Shown in pieces: positions 55,996 through 64,000 of a stretch of 64,000 bases of DNA. The notes beneath the pieces are model-generated. The model searched no databases, was not told the DNA's origin, and saw nothing but the letters and a program-made list of their open reading frames with translations. The stretch lies in NCBI RefSeq assembly GCF_000153125.2, contig NZ_CM002299.1:682809-746808 (forward strand). Direction: 5' to 3'. A program made the translations under genes and the position numbers. The stretch is from Congregibacter litoralis KT71. Lineage in GTDB: Bacteria; Pseudomonadota; Gammaproteobacteria; Pseudomonadales; Halieaceae. Within the stretch, counting starts at the first letter, position 1. Each line of letters opens with the position of its first letter.

Positions 55996-56133
55996 TTACT
56001 TCTGCATCGTTGCGCCGATGGCGGCACCAACAGCTATCCCGACGCCGACGCCCACGGCTATGTTGCCCAAAGCCACGCCAATCGCGGCGCCTATGCCCGC
56101 GCCAATTGCTATTCCTGCGCCCACATTATTCAT
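55996..56133 (-). CDS. 45-residue glycine-zipper membrane peptide
   Basis: Short gene read from ATG at 56131-56133 to TAA at 55996-55998. AGGAG lies 10 nt upstream of the ATG. The product is almost wholly Gly/Ala/Val/Ile: a segment of the form GAGIAIGAGIGAAIGVALG, then NIAVGVGVGIAVGAAIGATM and a C-terminal Gln-Lys. The GxxxG repeats form a glycine zipper, so a membrane-embedded oligomer or hairpin is expected. Similar 40-50-residue glycine-rich peptides occur in many bacteria with unknown roles. It is downstream of a possible gene remnant (56138-56358) and convergent with phoD. Confidence 0.65.
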   Translation of the reverse strand: MNNVGAGIAIGAGIGAAIGVALGNIAVGVGVGIAVGAAIGATMQK

Positions 56134-56352
56134 TTTTTAGTGCTCCTTCGGGTCGATGTTGGCCGAGACGATACATTTGTGCTCCCAGTGGGTCTGTTCG
56201 CGATAATTCTCGTCAGGTATCTCTTCAGTCTGCGCGATGGCGGCTGAGACAAGCGTAACGAACTCACGTCTGAATACTGGTTCCCTGGTGTTTCGCGAAT
56301 CACCTGGGAGTTGCGGATGGCATCCGCACGCGGGGCGATAAGCTGCATGGCA

Positions 56353-57627
56353 TTAATCGCCCCGTCGCGGTCGTTTTGAGCTGCGGGTGCGAAGCCAGAT
56401 GGCCAGGGGCACGCCAATCAAGATCACCAGGGTTCCGCCCGCGAACACTGCCAGTGCGGTCGGAAGACGAGAGGCGAAGCTCAGACTGTCGACATTGCCG
56501 GTCTTCCAGAATACCCACTCGCCTGCCAACTGCGTCGCCAGCATCGGGGTGCCAGTCGAGAGGATCACAATCCCATCGCCAGTCGCTGGATCGAGCCGCG
56601 CCGATGTGTTAATCGCAGGTTCGTTGCTGCCGTCGTGACCAATGATAAAGTCACCGGAATTGTTAGGGGCGTAGAGCATCGCGCCGAGACCCCATATCTC
56701 TGCGCCCATATCGGAGGCGTGAGGCGTTCTCGTCAAAGCAATCGCTTCTCTGGTTAGAACCGGGTTCGTTGAGCCCGGTCCCTGCCTGGCAATGAACCTG
56801 GCTAGATCTTCGGACGTCGTGAACAAAGATGTAGCCGCGAGCGCGGTGTACCAACGAAATGGCTCTGTTTTTCCGTCTGGCGTGAAGTTCTGCACGAGTC
56901 CGAGCTCGATGGCTTCTGAGTGATCAAATGTGGACCTGTTCATATCCATGGGAGCAAAGACGCGGTGGTGCATGAACTCTGGAAAGTCTTTCCCCGATAC
57001 CTCTTCGATGAGTAGTTGTAGCAACGTGTAGCTGGCGCCTGAATATTGCCACGCAGATCCTGGCTCACGGCCCAAAAGGGTCTGACCATCCTTACCTGGT
57101 GACGCGTCCGCCGCCTTCGTCAGTGAGGCTTCGAGCGTCTGCCGGTCCCCTGCCGTATCGAATCCGTCATAGCCAAGGTTATCGGTGAGCCCCGCGGTGT
57201 GGCTGAGCAATCGTCGTACGGTCACTCCTGAAGCGTCGAACTGCGAGGCGGGGATTTGCCAGCGGGAGAGGTATTTGGAAACCGGCGCATCAAGATCGAT
57301 CTCTCCTTCTTCGACAAGCGTCATGATGCCCCATGCCGTTAACCATTTGCCCAGAGATGCGACCTGAAAAACCGACTGTCCATCGACGATCCTGTCTTTC
57401 GATAGGTGAAATTCAGCCACTTTCATCCCGTGCTCGAGCAGGGTGAAGCTGAGGTTGCCCGCATTGTTTTTTTGAGCGATCTCTTGTGCTGCGATTGCAA
57501 ATTCCGCGATGTCGTCGTTTCTTGCCAATGGACTGTGCCCCCACCCCTGATCCAAGGCAGCGAACACGAGACCGGCCCATAGCAAAAGCGACGCTATGAC
57601 TGCCAAAGCGAGCTTTACGTACTTCAT
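56353..57627 (-). CDS. Beta-lactamase-family serine hydrolase, membrane-attached
   Basis: 424 residues. A signal peptide or anchor is at 5-25 and a second hydrophobic helix at about 385-410, followed by a basic tail (RTRSSKRPRRGD), so both ends are membrane-linked. The class C motif S-x-x-K is VASLGKW (Ser91, Lys94), the second motif Tyr is in WQYSGASY (about 194), and the third is IIGHDGSNEP. GGAGG upstream supports the ATG. Such proteins are peptidases or esterases rather than lactamases; the substrate is unknown. It lies just upstream of the glycine-zipper gene on the same strand. Confidence 0.82.
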   Translation of the reverse strand: MKYVKLALAVIASLLLWAGLVFAALDQGWGHSPLARNDDIAEFAIAAQEIAQKNNAGNLSFTLLEHGMKVAEFHLSKDRIVDGQSVFQVASLGKWLTAWGIMTLVEEGEIDLDAPVSKYLSRWQIPASQFDASGVTVRRLLSHTAGLTDNLGYDGFDTAGDRQTLEASLTKAADASPGKDGQTLLGREPGSAWQYSGASYTLLQLLIEEVSGKDFPEFMHHRVFAPMDMNRSTFDHSEAIELGLVQNFTPDGKTEPFRWYTALAATSLFTTSEDLARFIARQGPGSTNPVLTREAIALTRTPHASDMGAEIWGLGAMLYAPNNSGDFIIGHDGSNEPAINTSARLDPATGDGIVILSTGTPMLATQLAGEWVFWKTGNVDSLSFASRLPTALAVFAGGTLVILIGVPLAIWLRTRSSKRPRRGD

Positions 57628-57681
57628 GGTTTTTCCTCCATTTCTGAGCGGGTACTCGTGTTGCCAACTCCCCGTGTTGAC

Positions 57682-58107
57682 CTATTCGAGCAAATCCGCG
57701 TGCTGCGCCATCCAGCTTGAAAACTCGGCGAGTGAACTGTCGTCGAACCGGTCGTCCAGCTGCTGAATCTTTCCTTCTCGAAAGGTAGCTACTTCTTTGC
57801 CGCTGATGACCAGGTCAGGCGTGCCATCGATGGTGTACCGCACAGCGAATACCAGAGTGACCGTGTCGCCCTCACCAGTAATTTCGGGTTCACCCTCGAA
57901 AGCCCGATTGTCGAAGCGGCGGTCCAGAGAATCGACAGCCTTGCGCAGGTATTGAATTGCGGCCGCACCGCTGGTCAGCGTTTCACCCTCAGCGTTGTTG
58001 TAGCGCATATCGGATGCGAAATACGGCGTGATCCGGTTCCAATCGTCGTCCCTGTAGGTTTCTTCGAACGCATCGAAGTAGGCCTTGAAAATATCAACGT
58101 TGTTCAT
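57682..58107 (-). CDS. SnoaL-like (NTF2) protein
   Basis: 141 residues, cytosolic. The opening helix DIFKAYFDAFEETYRDDDWNRI, the strand block YFASDMRYNNAEGETLTSGA, and the C-terminal VISGKEVATFREGKIQQLDD with SSWMAQHADLL match the SnoaL-like polyketide-cyclase/NTF2 fold. AAGGG precedes the ATG. Its ligand cannot be named. Last gene of the minus-strand stress cluster; a 72-bp gap separates it from the DUF1772 gene. Confidence 0.8.
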   Translation of the reverse strand: MNNVDIFKAYFDAFEETYRDDDWNRITPYFASDMRYNNAEGETLTSGAAAIQYLRKAVDSLDRRFDNRAFEGEPEITGEGDTVTLVFAVRYTIDGTPDLVISGKEVATFREGKIQQLDDRFDDSSLAEFSSWMAQHADLLE

Positions 58108-58179
58108 CTTTACTACCCTTGAGTTTGTTTTGTCCGCTACGGTTTATTGGCAGCAGCCTCTGCCTGAGTGCGACGCGCG

Positions 58180-58689
58180 TCATTTGTGTACCTGCCCGCT
58201 CGTAATAAGTGTGATGGCCGCGATGAAGTAGAGGCCTGCAGTCAGCACGCTGCCGATGCACCGGACGTGATTGAGTCGCGTCCACTTGCGGCCGTATTGC
58301 AGCCAGTAAGCCTGGCCCAGCGTGCTGTTGTGATCGAGCCCTTCGAGTTTGTTGTTCATGGGCACGTTGCCAAACATCGTCATCAGAAAGACGCTTGGCA
58401 AATACACCAGCGGGGCAAGGATCAAGGCGACCAGGGCTGCTCCCTCGAACATCACAAGACCGTAGAGCGCAAAGAGAACTGAGAACGGGGCGATCGAGAG
58501 AATACCAGCCACAAACTGTGTTCGTAGCACCGTTCGATTAGTGTGCTGCATAACCTCCATACCCCCTCCTGGCGACGCCCGAAGTAACGCCGCCATGAGG
58601 AACTCTGAAAAAGCCGAGAAGACCCCGCCGATCACGGCGCTCCAGAGCGCCAGAAACAGGCAGAAGTAAAGCGTCCAGTCGTAAGTCAT
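58180..58689 (-). CDS. DUF1772 (anthrone-oxygenase-like) membrane protein
   Basis: 169 residues with four hydrophobic helices. N-terminal LYFCLFLALWSAVIGGVFSA, a middle conserved FMTMFGNVPMNNKLEGLDHN-like region with the Asn-Val-Pro-Asn block, and the C-terminal WTRLNHVRCIGSV (the W-x-x-x-N-H-x-R signature) identify DUF1772. Fungal relatives oxidise anthrones to anthraquinones without cofactors; bacterial members are poorly studied. In this cluster with quinone-reducing enzymes, a role in oxygen or quinone chemistry is plausible but inferred. Its ribosome site is weak. Confidence 0.8.
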   Translation of the reverse strand: MTYDWTLYFCLFLALWSAVIGGVFSAFSEFLMAALLRASPGGGMEVMQHTNRTVLRTQFVAGILSIAPFSVLFALYGLVMFEGAALVALILAPLVYLPSVFLMTMFGNVPMNNKLEGLDHNSTLGQAYWLQYGRKWTRLNHVRCIGSVLTAGLYFIAAITLITSGQVHK

Positions 58690-58719
58690 CTGTAAAAACC
58701 CCGCCGCCGTGGATCGAAA

Positions 58720-58739
58720 GCCCCGGGGAGTCCCGGGGC
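58720..58739 (-). terminator. Possible terminator after the NmrA gene
   Basis: GCCCCGGG and CCCGGGGC form a perfect 8-bp stem with a 4-nt loop. Reading the minus strand it is followed by TTTC. It lies between the stop of the NmrA-like gene and the DUF1772 start, about 20 bp after the stop. The short T-run makes it weak. Confidence 0.4.
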
Positions 58740-58759
58740 GGTCCTAGTGAAGCCGGCGT

Positions 58760-59605
58760 TCATGCGGCCTTGCTCCATAAACCTGTCGCAGCGACTTCGC
58801 GCGCGTAATCCGAAAAGTCCCGGGGCGAGCGGCCGAGCGCGCGCTGGACCCCGTCTGTCAGATAGGCGTTACGACCATCGAGGACCGTTGCAAACAGGTA
58901 ATCCAGTATCCAGACCACGTCGTCGGGCGCGCCTGAGCTTGCCACCTCCGACACGAAGGCGTCGTGCGGGACATCCACGTAGGCGATCTCGCGTCCGACC
59001 ACACGAGACAGGTCAGCGGCCACGTCAGCGATTGACATCAGCCGTGGGCCGGTCACTTCGTAAATCTGCCCATCGTGGCGATCTTCCGTGAGCGCGGCGA
59101 CGATAACATCGGCGACGTCATCCACATCCACGAACGGTTCGACCTGCTTGCCGGCGGGCAGTGTGATAGCGCCGCCCAGCACCATGTCGATGAACGCGCC
59201 TTCGGAGAAGTTCTGATTGAACCAGCTGGCGCGGACAATCGTCCATGGGATGCCCGACTCCTGCACGATCGTTTCGCAGGCCTGGGCCTCTTCTTCGCCA
59301 CGACCCGACAACAGGACCGCGCGCTTGATGCCGCGACGTCTGGCCCGTTCCACGAAGGCCCGGATCGCGTCCGTTGCCCCGGGCATTGCCAGGTCCGGCG
59401 CATAGTTGATGTACACCGCTGTCACACCCTCGAGACAGGCGTCCCAGCCGGCCTCGTTATTCCAGTCGAAGGATGGGACCGCAGAGCGCGACCCGACGCG
59501 GATGTTGCAAGCTTTCGCCATCATCCGCTCAGCGACGCGGCGGCCCGTCTTTCCGGTGCCTCCCAAAACGAGAGTGAGATCTTCTTTACTGTGTGAGTTG
59601 TTCAT
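58760..59605 (-). CDS. NmrA-like NAD(P)-binding protein
   Basis: 281 residues from ATG at 59603-59605, fixed by CAGGAG 9 nt upstream (a longer in-frame reading has no support and runs into the duplicated promoter). Atypical SDR of the NmrA/azoreductase-like group: NAD(P) loop LGGTGKTGRR (14-23), SRSAVPSFDWNN, GIKRAVLLSGRGEEE and PFVDVDDVADVIVAALTE. Relatives act as redox sensors or quinone/azo reductases. It is expressed from promoter copy A (59601-59709), which is the sister of the DoxX promoter. Its ATG is 100 bp after the AraC stop. Confidence 0.85.
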   Translation of the reverse strand: MNNSHSKEDLTLVLGGTGKTGRRVAERMMAKACNIRVGSRSAVPSFDWNNEAGWDACLEGVTAVYINYAPDLAMPGATDAIRAFVERARRRGIKRAVLLSGRGEEEAQACETIVQESGIPWTIVRASWFNQNFSEGAFIDMVLGGAITLPAGKQVEPFVDVDDVADVIVAALTEDRHDGQIYEVTGPRLMSIADVAADLSRVVGREIAYVDVPHDAFVSEVASSGAPDDVVWILDYLFATVLDGRNAYLTDGVQRALGRSPRDFSDYAREVAATGLWSKAA

Positions 59606-59709
59606 TGACTTGCTCCTGGTTCGTTGCTGGAGCTCACAATGTAGGGTCAACAGGGCATCAACTCTTGCCCGCTGATGCCAGACTATTGACCGAGCACGAC
59701 AATCGTCAG
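59601..59709 (-). promoter_or_regulatory. Duplicated promoter/operator, copy A (NmrA gene)
   Basis: 109 bp that align without gaps to 62392-62500; by hand 81 of 109 bases are the same. Both copies run from the start codon upstream. Identity is highest in the ribosome-site part and in the last 33 bp (28 of 33), where the minus strand reads GATTGTCG..TCGGT..A.AGTCTGGC. The far block is a candidate binding site for the AraC regulator. It overlaps the last 4 bp of the AraC coding sequence. Confidence 0.75.
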
Positions 59710-60719
59710 TTTTCCTGGGACGTCGGCCCCAGGCGATAGGAGCGAGGAGTCTGACCCGCCCAGCGCTTGAAGGCGCGGGTGAAGGCGCTTTGCTCTGAGA
59801 AGCCTGTCAGGAATCCGATCTCGGCCAGGCTGTAGTCCGTTTCCCGCAGCAGCCGTCGGGCGAGATCCCGGCGCGCCATGTCCACCACGCTTTGGAATGA
59901 GTGGCCGCTGTCGGACAGGCGTCTTTGCAGCGTACGACTCCCGATCCCCAATTCCGATGCGATCGATGACAGCGTTGGTACCCCCTCACTGAGCGTGCGA
60001 GCTACTGCCCGTCGAACCCGTTGCTCCAGACCGTGATCGTTGCTACTAGATGCCAGCTCTTCCTCGAGGTGTCGATCGAAGAAGCTCACAACCGTCTCGT
60101 CGCCCAGCCTGTTGGGCGCATCCAGTGTGTCCTCGCCGACGAGAAGCGCATCCCGAGGGGACTCGAAATGAACGGGACAGCCAAAGTGCGTTTCGTAGAC
60201 AGAGACATCACCCCGTGCGGCGTGTTTGAAGTACACGGCGAGAGGCGCGAAGTTTGCGGTCGTGACTTCCCTGCTGATGACATCGACGGCCGCCATACTG
60301 GCCTCGTTGGAAAGCAGCATGCCCAGGCGGCCGTCGCCGGCCTTGTCCAAGCTGAAAAACCAGCCGTCGTTACTCTGCTCGGGAGTATAGATTTCGGCGC
60401 TGCCCAGAACGTGGCCGTAGCGTTGGGACCGGCCATAGGAACCGCGCAGATTGGGCGCGGTTTTCCAGGCCAGTCCGAAGGCACCGTACTCGTCGCTGCG
60501 CATGGTGGCACCGATGCGCAGTGGCAGCGACAGACCATGGGGATCACGGGCTACCAGGCTTGCGAAGAAATCATAAAACTGTGTCGACGCTACCATCCGT
60601 TTCGGATCAACGGCGGCCCCGGCTATGAAACCGAGGTCTTCCAAAAGATCGGCGGTCTCAACGCCTGCGCTGACCTGGCTAAGAATCTTGTGGACATACA
60701 AAGAGGTGATCTGGCTCAT
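59706..60719 (-). CDS. AraC family regulator (Arabinose-bd domain type)
   Basis: 337 residues. N-terminal half is the long AraC-type ligand domain seen in OruR/ArgR-like regulators (LYVHKILSQVSAGVETADLL onward). The C-terminal DNA-binding part has two helix-turn-helix units: TLSSIASELGIGSRTLQRRL and YSLAEIGFLTGFSEQSAFTRAF, closing with KRWAGQTPRSYRLG. It is encoded between the NmrA and hydroquinone-reductase genes of the cluster. The two duplicated promoters (59601-59709 and 62392-62500) carry a common upstream block that is the best candidate for its target. Probably an activator responding to a quinone or electrophile. Confidence 0.9.
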   Translation of the reverse strand: MSQITSLYVHKILSQVSAGVETADLLEDLGFIAGAAVDPKRMVASTQFYDFFASLVARDPHGLSLPLRIGATMRSDEYGAFGLAWKTAPNLRGSYGRSQRYGHVLGSAEIYTPEQSNDGWFFSLDKAGDGRLGMLLSNEASMAAVDVISREVTTANFAPLAVYFKHAARGDVSVYETHFGCPVHFESPRDALLVGEDTLDAPNRLGDETVVSFFDRHLEEELASSSNDHGLEQRVRRAVARTLSEGVPTLSSIASELGIGSRTLQRRLSDSGHSFQSVVDMARRDLARRLLRETDYSLAEIGFLTGFSEQSAFTRAFKRWAGQTPRSYRLGPTSQEN

Positions 60720-60844
60720 CGTGAATCTCTTTGGATCGGCTAATGTCCCGCATTTAAGATCAATATGATATCAAGTGGGTGGAGCAACCGCATGAAGCGA
60801 CCAGAGTGCGCTAACAGCGAAAGAGTCGAGTATTGGTTTCATTA

Positions 60845-61810
60845 TCATACTCCTTGCGCATCCAGATCACTGATGGGTCCCGTCGGCACGATTCCGGTAG
60901 GGTTTAATGCCTTGATGGAGTAGTAGCCTGCTTTGATGTGATCGAGGTTTACCGTATCTGCGATACCCTCAAGTGCGAGAGTTCGTCGCATGTAGGCGCG
61001 CAGGTATGGCATGTCTCTCAAGGTATTACGGTTACATTTGAACAGCCCATGGTAAGCGGCATCAAAGCGCACCAAGGTGACAAACAGACGTACGTCGGTT
61101 TCCGTTAAGCGGTCGTCAAACAGATAGGTGCGACCATCCGCCAGCCGGGACTCCATTTTGTCCAACGCAGCAAACACTTTGCCATAGGCCTCTTCATAGG
61201 CCTCCTGGCTAGAAGCGAAACCCGCTTGATACACGCCGTTGTTCAAGTCCATGTATAGATTGGTGTTCAGGGTATCGATATCTTTAGCAAGGTCGTCAGG
61301 GTAAAGATTCGGGCCCTGGTTCACTATTCCTGAGAATGCGCTATTGAGCATCCTGAGAATATCCGCAGACTCATTATTGACTATGGTTGCAGTATTCTTG
61401 TCCCACAGAATCGGTACGGTGGCACGTCCGGAAATCGCTGCATCAGCCAGAGTGTACAGCTCGTGCAAATAGCGTGCGCTATTAAGCGGGTCCTCATCAG
61501 CACCCGGGTAAACTCCGAACTGCCAACCCTGATCGGTCAGCCGCGGATCGACAACTGTGACGCCAATAACGTTCTGCAATCCCTTGAGTTCGCGAGCCAT
61601 CAGCGTTCGCGACGCCCACGGACAAATGTAGGCAACGTACAGATGGTAGCGCCCAATCTCCGCTTGGAAACCTCCAGAGCCGGTCGGGCCAGGGGAACCA
61701 TCCTGCGTAACCCAGTTCCGAAATGACGAGGTCTGCCGGATGAAGCGTCCCTGATCGTCTTTCGCCTGCACCGGCTGCCAGTTTTCCTGCCATTTACCGT
61801 TAATCAACAT
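60845..61810 (-). CDS. Glutathionyl-hydroquinone reductase
   Basis: 321 residues, the length of xi-class GSTs (YqjG/PcpF). The signature YICPWASRTLMAREL holds the catalytic Cys63; VPILWDKNTATIVNNESADI is the glutathione-binding block; LTETDVRLFVTLVRFDAAYH is the C-terminal family signature. It removes glutathione from glutathionyl-hydroquinones formed by quinone detoxification. AGGAG is 9 nt upstream of the ATG. It lies between the AraC gene and DoxX; E. coli yqjG is likewise next to the DoxX-like yqjF. Confidence 0.93.
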   Translation of the reverse strand: MLINGKWQENWQPVQAKDDQGRFIRQTSSFRNWVTQDGSPGPTGSGGFQAEIGRYHLYVAYICPWASRTLMARELKGLQNVIGVTVVDPRLTDQGWQFGVYPGADEDPLNSARYLHELYTLADAAISGRATVPILWDKNTATIVNNESADILRMLNSAFSGIVNQGPNLYPDDLAKDIDTLNTNLYMDLNNGVYQAGFASSQEAYEEAYGKVFAALDKMESRLADGRTYLFDDRLTETDVRLFVTLVRFDAAYHGLFKCNRNTLRDMPYLRAYMRRTLALEGIADTVNLDHIKAGYYSIKALNPTGIVPTGPISDLDAQGV

Positions 61811-61889
61811 GTTCTATTCTCCTGCCGGGAAGGGTGCCCCGCTCCTGGGGAGCGCTATGAGTTAAAAGACTGAATCCAGTTCATAAACG

Positions 61890-62396
61890 CTACGTGCGGA
61901 CACGCGACTCGTGTCCAATACCACCAAGACGCTTCGCCAAAACCCTGTCCAGTGCAAACCGTCCGGCGCCCTGAACAGCTATCGCCACCGCGACCACAAG
62001 TAGCGTCAGGGCGTACTCGTAACCATTGTTGGCGATGAACAAACCATTACCCATATGAACTGAGATTGTGGCCACCAGCATCGTGATCGCTATAGCGATA
62101 GCCGCGGGACGTGTCAGCAGGCCCACTATCAGCAAAAGGCCGCCAACGAATTCGGCGCCTCCGGCGAGCAAAGCCATCAGCAAGCCGGGCTCCAGGCCGA
62201 TGCTGGCCAGCCACTTCCCGGTCCCTGCCAAGCCATAGCCGCCGAACCAACCAAAGAGTTTCTGAGCACCGTGGGCCGCTAGAATAAGCCCCACCGGTAC
62301 CCGCAGGATCAGTCCCGCATAGTCGCTGCGTCTCTCGGGGTTTCCTGTGCTTCCCGGTCCGAGGGCGAGGTCTGTTGCTGTTTTAACCACGTTCAT
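61890..62396 (-). CDS. DoxX family membrane protein (YqjF-like)
   Basis: 168 residues from ATG at 62394-62396, fixed by AAGGAG 7-8 nt upstream (an upstream in-frame reading runs through the duplicated promoter). Four helices with LILRVPVGLILAAHGAQKLF GWFGGYGL in the DoxX signature (Gly-rich after helix 1) and a C-terminal GRFALDRVLAKRL. Partner of the hydroquinone reductase in several proteobacteria. Its promoter region is copy B of the duplicated element. Membrane role in quinone metabolism is inferred. Confidence 0.88.
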   Translation of the reverse strand: MNVVKTATDLALGPGSTGNPERRSDYAGLILRVPVGLILAAHGAQKLFGWFGGYGLAGTGKWLASIGLEPGLLMALLAGGAEFVGGLLLIVGLLTRPAAIAIAITMLVATISVHMGNGLFIANNGYEYALTLLVVAVAIAVQGAGRFALDRVLAKRLGGIGHESRVRT

Positions 62397-62500
62397 TTTC
62401 TTGCTCCTTATTCGTTGTTGGAGGTCACAAGGTATAGCCCGCAAGGCTCCAGTTATTGTCTTCTCGTGCCAGACTGTTAACCGATCGCGACAATCCTCAG
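62392..62500 (-). promoter_or_regulatory. Duplicated promoter/operator, copy B (DoxX gene)
   Basis: Sister of 59601-59709 (see that entry), placed upstream of DoxX. It carries TATACC at about the -10 position and the same far-upstream block CTGAGGATTGTCGCGATCGG. The remaining gap to 62594 holds nothing else recognised. Confidence 0.75.
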
Positions 62501-62594
62501 CTGCCGCTGCGCTCCGCCCTGCACCAAAGCCGAATCGATGGGGCGTGGTCTGCGTCTCTCCAGATCTCGGGGCTTGCATGTAGTAGTTCTTCGG

Positions 62595-62822
62595 CTACCG
62601 ATACAGCCAGTCACCCGCCACACGTGTCAGCAGTGGCATGATGAGATAGGACATCAGTCCAACCATGATCACCACCGATAACGAGACGTGGATCAGGGGA
62701 GAGTCGGGCAGCACGGCCTGAAGTGAAGGCGGGATAATGTGCACGGGAAAGAGGAGGCCCAAGAAGGTTAGCAATGCCATTTTGTGACGCTTTGGTGGAT
62801 CACACGCCGTCGTCTTGCTCAT
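62595..62822 (-). CDS. Small two-helix membrane protein (ABM-associated type)
   Basis: 75 residues from ATG at 62820-62822 with a strong AAGGAGG 8 nt upstream; a longer reading to 62903 overlaps the isochorismatase gene and lacks support. Basic cytosolic start (DPPKRHKMALLTFLGLLFP), two hydrophobic helices, and an end YLIMPLLTRVAGDWLYR. This is very like the C-terminal membrane part fused to many antibiotic-biosynthesis-monooxygenase (ABM) proteins, here as a stand-alone gene without the ABM domain. Function unknown; part of the pirin/isochorismatase operon. Confidence 0.75.
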   Translation of the reverse strand: MSKTTACDPPKRHKMALLTFLGLLFPVHIIPPSLQAVLPDSPLIHVSLSVVIMVGLMSYLIMPLLTRVAGDWLYR

Positions 62823-62857
62823 GCTATTAGCCTCCTTATACCGAACGCACATTGTGC

Positions 62858-63481
62858 TTATGCAGCAACACTCGACCGCACCTGGCCAACGAGGGTGGCC
62901 CAATCCATACTGAGTGCACTGTAAACATCCGCCGCTTTCTCAGATGCATTGTCCGCAAGTATTTCGACCATAAGGCTTGCTCCATCGGCAACGACGACAC
63001 CGCTCTGAGCAAGCCTGAGCAGCCCGGTTTCGCGCTTCGTGCGGTCGAAGGTCCCGCTTGCATCTACGGCGACGTAAGCTTCGAAGCCTTCGCGAGCGGC
63101 ACGCATCGCAGGGAAGGCGGCACATACTTCGAGGGATACGCCGGCAAATATGAGTTTGCTTCGGCCGGTGGCACGAATTGCCTTTTCGACACGGGGGTCG
63201 TCCCAGGCATTGACTGATGTGCGGTCAATGAACGTATGGTTCGGCAGAGCTTTCTGCAGTTCAGGAAAGGCCGGCCCCCATAGCGTATTGGCCGAGGTCG
63301 TCGTCGTGACAATTGGTAGATTTAGAATGTGCGCCGCAGAAGCCAGTCCGACTACATTGTGTTTCAGTTCGGCGATGGAGTAGTCGCGCACGCCGGTCAT
63401 TAATCCCACCTGATGATCGACAAGCACTAGGGCCGCGTTCTCGGCCGTGAGCGGGGAAGGATTTGTTATCGATTGGTTCAT
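62858..63481 (-). CDS. Isochorismatase-family hydrolase (YcaC-like)
   Basis: 207 residues. Catalytic Asp22 in LVLVDHQVGLMTG, the middle Lys region after TTTSANTLWGPAFPELQ, and Cys120 in FAGVSLEVCAAFPAMRAA match the YcaC-like branch of isochorismatase enzymes, whose substrate is unknown. The true isochorismate residues are not evident. GGAGAAATGAT precedes the ATG. It lies 39 bp downstream of pirin and 35 bp upstream of the small membrane protein gene, in one operon. Confidence 0.9.
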   Translation of the reverse strand: MNQSITNPSPLTAENAALVLVDHQVGLMTGVRDYSIAELKHNVVGLASAAHILNLPIVTTTTSANTLWGPAFPELQKALPNHTFIDRTSVNAWDDPRVEKAIRATGRSKLIFAGVSLEVCAAFPAMRAAREGFEAYVAVDASGTFDRTKRETGLLRLAQSGVVVADGASLMVEILADNASEKAADVYSALSMDWATLVGQVRSSVAA

Positions 63482-63520
63482 ATCATTTCTCCTGATTTGC
63501 GTTTTAGGTGTGGGGGTACT

Positions 63521-64000
63521 TCAGGCGATTCGACCAAACTGGCCGGCCGCATAGGCCGCCTGGGCCTCGTCGATTTTTTCTTCCGAGTCCATGACGAAGG
63601 GGCCGCGCTGGACGAAGGCTTCTCGCAGTGGCTCTGCATCAAAAAGCGCGAAATGGCTGGTCGCGTTCTTGCGGCTCGCTAATCGAATGTGCACCGGATG
63701 TCCTGTGGAAGGATTGCTTATGCTTATGCTTATGGCGTCACCCTGTGGAATAGTGAGCAGTTGGCCAGCCACCGACACGCTCAGCTCACCCTCAACGGCA
63801 TGTACCCACGCATTTCGTTGCTGCTTAAGAAGATGTTCAAAGCCTCTCGCTCCCATGACGTAACCATCTAGGATCGTCATGGAGGAATCGGGAGCGCGAA
63901 AACCAAGCACGTCATTTGAGCGCCCAAGCGCCACGCGAACGCGGTGGCTCTCGCTGGAAATCACCGGCATCTCGCTGCCGCGTACAAGTAAAGAGGTCGG
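63521..64000 (-). CDS. Pirin family protein (5' end outside window)
   Basis: 159 codons to the stop, open to the window edge, so the N-terminal half is missing. The sequence is the C-terminal cupin of pirin: MTILDGYVMGARGFEHLLKQ, NAWVHAVEGELSVSVAGQLL and FALFDAEPLREAFVQRGPFVMD (the RGPFVM signature). Some pirins are quercetin 2,3-dioxygenases; others act with redox regulators. Adjacent to isochorismatase, DoxX and hydroquinone reductase, as in E. coli yhaK near yqjFG. The reading continues past the first internal ATG with coding-like sequence (TSLLVRGSE), so the gene starts outside the window. Confidence 0.88.
   Translation of the reverse strand, partial: PTSLLVRGSEMPVISSESHRVRVALGRSNDVLGFRAPDSSMTILDGYVMGARGFEHLLKQQRNAWVHAVEGELSVSVAGQLLTIPQGDAISISISNPSTGHPVHIRLASRKNATSHFALFDAEPLREAFVQRGPFVMDSEEKIDEAQAAYAAGQFGRIA

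Follow-up and report, generated by a model that had tools for sequence, protein, structure and literature searches.

A stretch of 64,000 nucleotides of the Congregibacter litoralis KT71 genome (contig NZ_CM002299.1, positions 682,809 to 746,808; hereafter the window) includes a series of genes, beginning with pirin and ending with a serine hydrolase gene of the beta-lactamase fold, that is encoded entirely on the minus strand. Among them are an araC-type regulator gene, the gene of an NmrA-like protein (nmrA) and doxX. An earlier note on this DNA had described a gapless repeat of 109 bp, located once 5′ of nmrA (copy A) and once 5′ of doxX (copy B), as a duplicated control region. The alignment confirmed the repeat: the two copies, both on the minus strand, are identical at 81 of 109 positions, with 33/40 identities in the leader, 20/36 in the middle and 28/33 in the distal block. 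No third place in the window, searched on both strands, reached 48/109 against copy A, and the best second matches of 500 random 109-mers from the window had a mean of 51 identities and a maximum of 78. Searches of the whole 4.35-Mb genome at up to three mismatches, with the pattern of the distal block as well as with the refined operator pattern described below, returned only sites A and B. A blastn search with copy A failed to report copy B and is therefore uninformative on the absence of further copies. A chance similarity of A and B was rejected by the alignment, the genome pattern searches and the matrix scan described below. The lack of extra genomic copies at up to three mismatches led to the rejection of a mobile element or repeat family, and a simple gene duplication was rejected because nmrA and doxX are unmatched beyond about codon 25. 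The latter result and the domain searches agree with the note in that the two coding genes are unrelated and that AraC, NmrA and DoxX were correctly named. The random 109-mer that matched 78/109 elsewhere in the window points to at least one other repeat there.

Genome contigs were scanned with an alignment of four AraC sequences (peptide patterns MSQITSLY and MRS[DN][ED]YGA). The scan gave 42 AraC loci with 51-80% identity, seven of them partial or below 66%, from Alpha- and Gammaproteobacteria, Calditrichota and Chloroflexota. An operator was found 5′ of nmrA in 41 of the 42; this control region neighbors a conserved regulator gene in many marine bacteria. Thirty-eight of these upstream regions were cut directly and three (L024, as L097; L025; L047) were obtained from re-fetched or re-read sequence. 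In L025 and L047 an nmrA frame lies behind the operator, though the homology annotation had not marked nmrA, and in L024 nmrA is interrupted by the contig end. The nmrA gene does not directly follow araC in L034, L024 and L045. An inverted operator was considered for genomes G122 and G126 and rejected, its orientation being equal to that of nmrA. Conservation of the distal block in relatives had been named beforehand as the test of the earlier proposal, and the block proved to be conserved; its extent had to be revised, since the functional block is 41 bp, longer than the 33 bp proposed and shifted with respect to them.

A position weight matrix (PWM) holding 43 bits was built from 38 orthologous sites, with both window copies excluded from the training set. 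When the window was scanned, operator A scored 45.7 bits and operator B 35.4 bits, while the next-best place reached 2.6 bits; the training sites ranged from 29.7 to 58.8 bits. Other sites outside the training set scored 33.3 (L025), 34.4 (L047), 49.4 (L097), 44.4 (L093) and 45.6 bits (L143). The autocorrelation of the matrix peaked at 21 bp (0.25; next value -0.93), as is the case for direct half-sites, and the boxes read off the alignment columns are TGGC-TGYC-TGGC-GGC with spacings of 10, 11 and 10. Eleven columns are invariant over 43 sites, and A and B keep all 11. The regulator encoded next to copy A has the C-terminal double helix-turn-helix domain of the family (HTH_18, E 8.8e-21; Arabinose_bd, E 9.4e-26). 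Its relatives among known structures are distant (best, 5chh, E 4.6e-20), and the best NCBIfam model, QhpR, scored 179, under its cut-off of 250.

The co-occurrence of the operator and AraC was then evaluated across genomes. At up to three mismatches the operator pattern was matched in 41/43 AraC-bearing genomes, mostly once in each, a count that is not independent because the pattern was derived from these AraC loci; the pattern read backward matched in 5/43. The two AraC-bearing genomes missed by the pattern hold sites of 33.3 and 34.4 bits. In two Erythrobacter genomes the pattern match is a site in front of pirin, and the nmrA site has four mismatches. Within a sample of 369 genomes from the class, AraC (E up to 1e-80) was detected in two, that of KT71 and G533, and a site at up to one mismatch was present in exactly those two. 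G533, the only AraC-bearing genome of this sample besides that of KT71, was not used to define the pattern; here a site of 45.6 bits separates araC from nmrA, and behind it comes the inverted repeat described below for the leaders. Two more genomes of the sample have 2-mismatch sites, of 16.8 and 22.3 bits, with no araC or nmrA homologue within the 5 kb taken. These results agree with the designation of AraC as the likely regulator of a small dedicated regulon, an idea that is well supported by the genome comparisons. In genomes of genus g21 (e.g., G110:C1:231153, G095, G065, G080), TTGGC-repeat sites were observed in a similar layout without this AraC, and they may be operators of other AraC-type proteins.

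The similarity between A and B does not stop at the ATG. It continues in frame, with 34/60 identical nucleotides over the first 20 codons and 38/72 over the longer stretch; of 37,410 pairs from the window compared in matching frame, only 3 attained 38/72, and one of these is the observed pair itself. The N-terminus of DoxX, MNVVKTATDLALGPGSTGNPERR, was compared with a profile of NmrA N-termini, of which 30/39 were usable, and fitted it in the same register with a p value of 0.00165. Two close DoxX homologues, P0002 and P0003, gave p values of 0.00015 and 0.00105, while four ordinary DoxX N-termini showed no fit (p 0.33-0.53). Among the best 120 of 7,971 DoxX homologues, only these two, besides DoxX itself, match over at least 99% of the length. 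In a sample of genomes from the family, none of the 28 further DoxX matches begins before residue 16, and 27 do not begin before residue 23. By these comparisons, DoxX starts with about 23 residues that resemble the NmrA N-terminus and are absent from the ordinary DoxX proteins examined. A second, ordinary doxX (G000:C1:1696153-1696545) occurs in the same genome; it is 62% identical, matches from residue 28 and has no nmrA-like N-terminus.

When copy B was compared with 38 other upstream regions the identity was at most 67/109, as opposed to 81/109 with copy A, which suggests that the duplication happened in this lineage. The most economical reading is that doxX received a copied piece whose one end lay upstream of the operator and whose other end lay near codon 23 of nmrA. 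The proposal of a duplicated control region thus captured a real repeat and a real operator, but the copy seems to include the first nmrA codons in addition to the control region. An independent, convergent origin, in which the two promoters are alike merely through shared regulation by AraC, is highly improbable. Operators of different genomes are strongly alike by constraint alone, and the Erythrobacter pirin site is at background similarity outside its operator, as convergence would have it; A and B, however, share 23/35 bases downstream of the operator, where the median over 903 locus pairs is 13 (120 of the pairs, near relatives among them, reach at least 20/35), and their similarity extends into the coding sequence.

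We hypothesized that the AraC protein of the window would bind the two direct half-sites that precede nmrA at a spacing of 21 bp. The predicted -35 region would overlap the proximal half-site, the layout of class II AraC/XylS activators, and AraC would for this reason most likely act as an activator of nmrA. The -10 was placed by column conservation alone (T60 in 26/38 and A61 in 37/38 relatives), which puts the predicted transcription start near operator position 72. The signal would be a compound, probably aromatic or quinone-like. A cassette comprising the operator and promoter, the leader with the start codon, and about 23 codons of nmrA would have been copied in frame in front of doxX, so that AraC would now also drive doxX and the downstream glutathione S-transferase (GST) gene, and nmrA and doxX would be under one AraC switch. 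We estimate the probability of this reading at roughly 75%. Read-through from doxX-gst could possibly reach araC itself, a positive feedback; no minus-strand terminator-like site was found from 58628 to 62140, which spans doxX to the nmrA start, and the region as a whole has 6 terminator-like sites versus 5.9 in shuffled sequences. Tandem direct repeats are also the layout of other AraC-family sites. A published example is SphR of Pseudomonas aeruginosa, whose sites are reported to consist of two direct TGNCCSNNRNNSNCC repeats with 6-8 bp between them, i.e., 21-23 bp apart, and to be present at few of its promoters (PMC3900636). Set beside that description, the window operator likewise has two half-sites of similar form, 21 bp apart, while consensus and target genes differ; the likeness concerns the site layout.

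Several observations weigh against this reading. The test of the graft is of moderate strength (with the usable N-termini, p is about 1e-3 for DoxX of the window), and operator B is further from the consensus than operator A. A scan for sigma-70 consensus promoters found none in the region (0 versus 2.6 in shuffled sequences), an absence that is expected for an activator-dependent promoter yet is no proof of one. One locus with a truncated AraC, L051, has neither the site nor nmrA; a second, intact araC-operator-nmrA locus is located on another contig of that genome (L093). In the family sample, 40/140 genomes matched the pattern at up to three mismatches (8/140 with the backward control) and only four carry AraC (E up to 1e-40); at up to one mismatch the KT71 genome was the only one. 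Several of the looser matches read ATGTCGACCATTGCCAACAACCTGGC or near it and translate as MSTIANNLA, which we take to be part of a flagellar rod-protein gene. Lastly, doxX could be controlled chiefly by the product of a LysR gene next to pirin. This gene, at 64577-65515 (L060:10386-11324), just past the end of the window, is divergent from pirin, like the members of the yhaJ-yhaK pair of E. coli.

The LysR gene has to be considered together with the organization of the locus, where two modules adjoin: araC-nmrA-anthrone oxygenase-SnoaL-beta-lactamase-fold hydrolase and LysR-pirin-YcaC-like-DoxX-YqjG-like (Table 1). The first is mostly found without the second, a pirin homologue being present in the flanks of 4/42 AraC loci; a fifth locus, L034, has pirin on its contig. 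By tree path, the nearest relatives of AraC are alphaproteobacterial orthologues, with 80% identity to that of a Hyphomonadaceae metagenome-assembled genome, and not the one from Halieaceae. This suggests that the araC-nmrA module was horizontally transferred; the branching within the alphaproteobacterial clade is not settled.

Table 1. Features of the locus, with positions counted from the first nucleotide of the window
Feature	Positions	Strand	Basis or remark
Serine hydrolase of the beta-lactamase fold (PF00144)	56353..57627	-	Domain search
SnoaL-like protein	57682..58107	-	Domain search
Anthrone oxygenase-like protein (PF08592)	58180..58689	-	Domain search
nmrA, NmrA-like NAD(P)-binding protein	58760..59605	-	Domain search
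Codons 1-23 of nmrA, from which the graft is proposed to derive	59537..59605	-	Nucleotide and protein-profile comparison
Copy A of the repeat, 5′ of nmrA	59601..59709	-	Gapless alignment with copy B
Leader A, predicted hairpin over the ribosome site (GCTCC/GGAGC variant)	59603..59641	-	Fold -10.8 kcal/mol, z -2.06
Predicted -10 of copy A, TACATT	59638..59643	-	Column conservation in relatives; prediction
Operator A, a 41-bp direct repeat of two AraC-type half-sites with a period of 21 bp	59662..59702	-	PWM, 45.7 bits
araC-type regulator (PF12625 and HTH_18)	59706..60719	-	Domain search
Glutathionyl-hydroquinone reductase-type GST (YqjG-like)	60845..61810	-	3r3e YqjG, E 6e-98
doxX	61890..62396	-	Domain search
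First 23 codons of doxX, putative nmrA-like graft	62328..62396	-	Nucleotide and protein-profile comparison
Copy B of the repeat, 5′ of doxX	62392..62500	-	Gapless alignment with copy A
Leader B, weaker predicted hairpin	62400..62431	-	Fold -6.7 kcal/mol, z -2.71
Predicted -10 of copy B, TACCTT	62429..62434	-	Prediction
Operator B, same architecture as A	62453..62493	-	PWM, 35.4 bits
Membrane-like open reading frame, 75 amino acids	62595..62822	-	Without Pfam match
Isochorismatase fold (YcaC-like, below NCBIfam cut-off)	62858..63481	-	
Pirin	63521..64000	-	Domain search; open frame continues past the window to 64477

In E. coli, yqjG is located beside yqjF, whose product is a DoxX protein. The LysR-type regulator YhaJ controls yqjF and its divergent neighbor, the pirin-like yhaK, and yqjF is reported to be induced by hydroquinone and catechol (PMC5031710). 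The second module resembles what is described there in that LysR is divergent from pirin and the DoxX and YqjG-type GST genes lie alongside, and it differs from it in that an AraC operator precedes doxX. The LysR protein scored 236 bits against NF011573, the nearest NCBIfam model, whose cut-off is 380, a score that does not establish orthology with YhaJ. The designation of the whole region as a quinone detoxification cluster holds in part: two modules meet here, of which the LysR-pirin one resembles the YhaJ regulon. The divergent LysR-pirin pair adjoining the module, the regulation and inducers reported for E. coli and the lower score of copy B would all suit a scheme in which the YhaJ-like LysR protein controls doxX and the AraC-type block in front of it is a relic of a chance duplication. 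We consider this quite unlikely, since B keeps all of the invariant operator columns, the spacer between the conserved ends of A and B diverged more than the ends, and AraC operators precede a DUF1772-like gene beside LysR-pirin in Marinobacter and pirin itself in Erythrobacter, as described in the next paragraph. Literature searches with combinations of NmrA, AraC, DoxX and pirin, of AraC and DUF1772, and of QhpR with AraC returned, among the titles listed, no description of a regulator of the araC-nmrA cluster.

Second operators at up to two mismatches were surveyed in genomes other than that of KT71. In Marinobacter flavimaris and in a Marinobacter-like contig labelled Rhodopirellula, a second operator precedes a DUF1772-like gene that adjoins LysR-pirin. 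Behind the operator, 26/35 and 27/35 bases are shared with the nmrA copy, and these second operators were thus probably copied from the nmrA site. In two Erythrobacter genomes a second operator lies in front of pirin, with matches of 15/35 and 10/35 after the operator, which is the background level. In one Maricaulaceae genome the gene preceded by the second operator encodes a beta-lactamase-fold serine hydrolase, and in one Hyphomonas genome a second operator faces away from araC, with no long open reading frame behind it (L093:6353-6392). Second targets therefore vary between lineages; two lineages resemble the window in that the added target is, or adjoins, pirin. Six 3-mismatch sites (G145, G157 twice, G164, G170 and G172) were set aside as probable chance matches; G170, the only one inspected, had no cluster gene and no matrix score above 15. 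The araC-nmrA cluster is widespread, and its regulator now has an explicit predicted binding site of 41 bp. The window suggests that a regulon can grow by copying a promoter together with the start of a gene, which leaves a scar at the protein level.

The leader had been described as conserved at the ribosome site, and this was found to be correct (33/40); what the note had not anticipated is that in relatives the leader forms a predicted, covarying hairpin over that site, which is weak in the window copies. The inverted repeat reads GACTTGC-N15/16-GCAAGTC-ATG in relatives. Forty of 42 leaders, including the two of the window, fold better than shuffled sequences at z < -1, with a mean of -3.23; only L033 and L035 do not. 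Over 35 leaders, 81.2% of 382 cells of the stem pair, and 7/11 pairs have double changes, in a total of 29 cells. None of 500 shuffles matched the pairing, the number of double-change cells or the covariation score, and 2/500 matched the other two measures. Pairing fell to 42.2% at most when the stem partner was slid. These values must be read with the qualification that the stem was named from the sequences and that related sequences can beat shuffles without a structure; RNAalifold, applied to this alignment, did not return a consensus.

The predicted transcription start lies inside the left arm (68-74). The repeat could then be a gate against read-through: mRNA started at the AraC-dependent promoter would be translatable, and RNA reading through from araC would be blocked, an addition to regulation by AraC. 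Hairpins at ribosome sites silence read-through transcripts of the IS10/IS50 transposases and of T4 gene e. The leaders are like these in that the hairpin holds the ribosome site, with the predicted start in its left arm, and unlike them in that they belong to a chromosomal, AraC-regulated operon, the start is a predicted one and the hairpin is weak in the window copies. The energy needed to open the ribosome site was computed for read-through and promoter-started RNAs. For the 38 nmrA loci in which araC is not divergent, the medians were 10.8 and 3.8 kcal/mol, and 35 of these loci showed a difference of at least 2.5; the medians were 9.3 and 6.6 in five loci with a divergent araC (differences -1.0, 0.5, 1.9, 3.3 and 4.0), all five of which lack the stem.

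A gate is possible on these data, although the odds lie against it. It depends on predicted starts, and with assumed starts at 66 or 68 the ribosome site stays closed (9.6 and 7.9). The four divergent loci present in the AraC tree (L058 was too short) are a single clade and thus count as one event. The stem is kept in L034 and L024/L097, where the upstream neighbor reads away from nmrA, which speaks either against the gate or for a recent rearrangement, and it is missing from the co-directional L052. The leaders of other second targets mostly lack the energy difference (-1.1, 0.3, 0.5 and 6.3). In the window the opening energies differ by 2.6 (A) and 0.6 (B), and the gate, if real, is therefore weak there. 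G-U cells (10) barely outnumber A-C cells (7), which does not separate an RNA hairpin from a DNA element. The inverted repeat may alternatively be the DNA operator of a second, dimeric regulator: in most cases 15-16 nt separate its arms, the predicted start site falls within the left one, and the stem persists in the two cases named above without a co-directional neighbor. Such an operator is nonetheless unlikely, as the arm spacing is about 23 nt in L049, the loop of L050 is far longer and holds an inner hairpin, the right arm directly adjoins the ribosome site, and in many cases the start codon is part of the fold.

If the gate is real, it would be a simple way to silence an inducible gene downstream of its own regulator gene. 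It would also be part of a portable cassette combining the tandem AraC operator, an activator-dependent promoter and a hairpin that passes only AraC-started transcripts, conserved in Alpha- and Gammaproteobacteria and beyond, placed repeatedly in front of detoxification genes and carrying, in the window, the first nmrA codons that would now be the DoxX N-terminus; this broader proposal is rather doubtful. Literature searches on promoter capture, read-through hairpins and VirS, covering titles and passages, returned no direct precedent. Known RNA families were absent from positions 56000-64000 of the window (E up to 5), and in five relatives the same search found just a tRNA at gathering scores. 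Next to the repeat, the 75-amino-acid open reading frame upstream of doxX has a 54% identical homologue beside an isochorismatase gene in a genome of the same family (L016:11542-11817).

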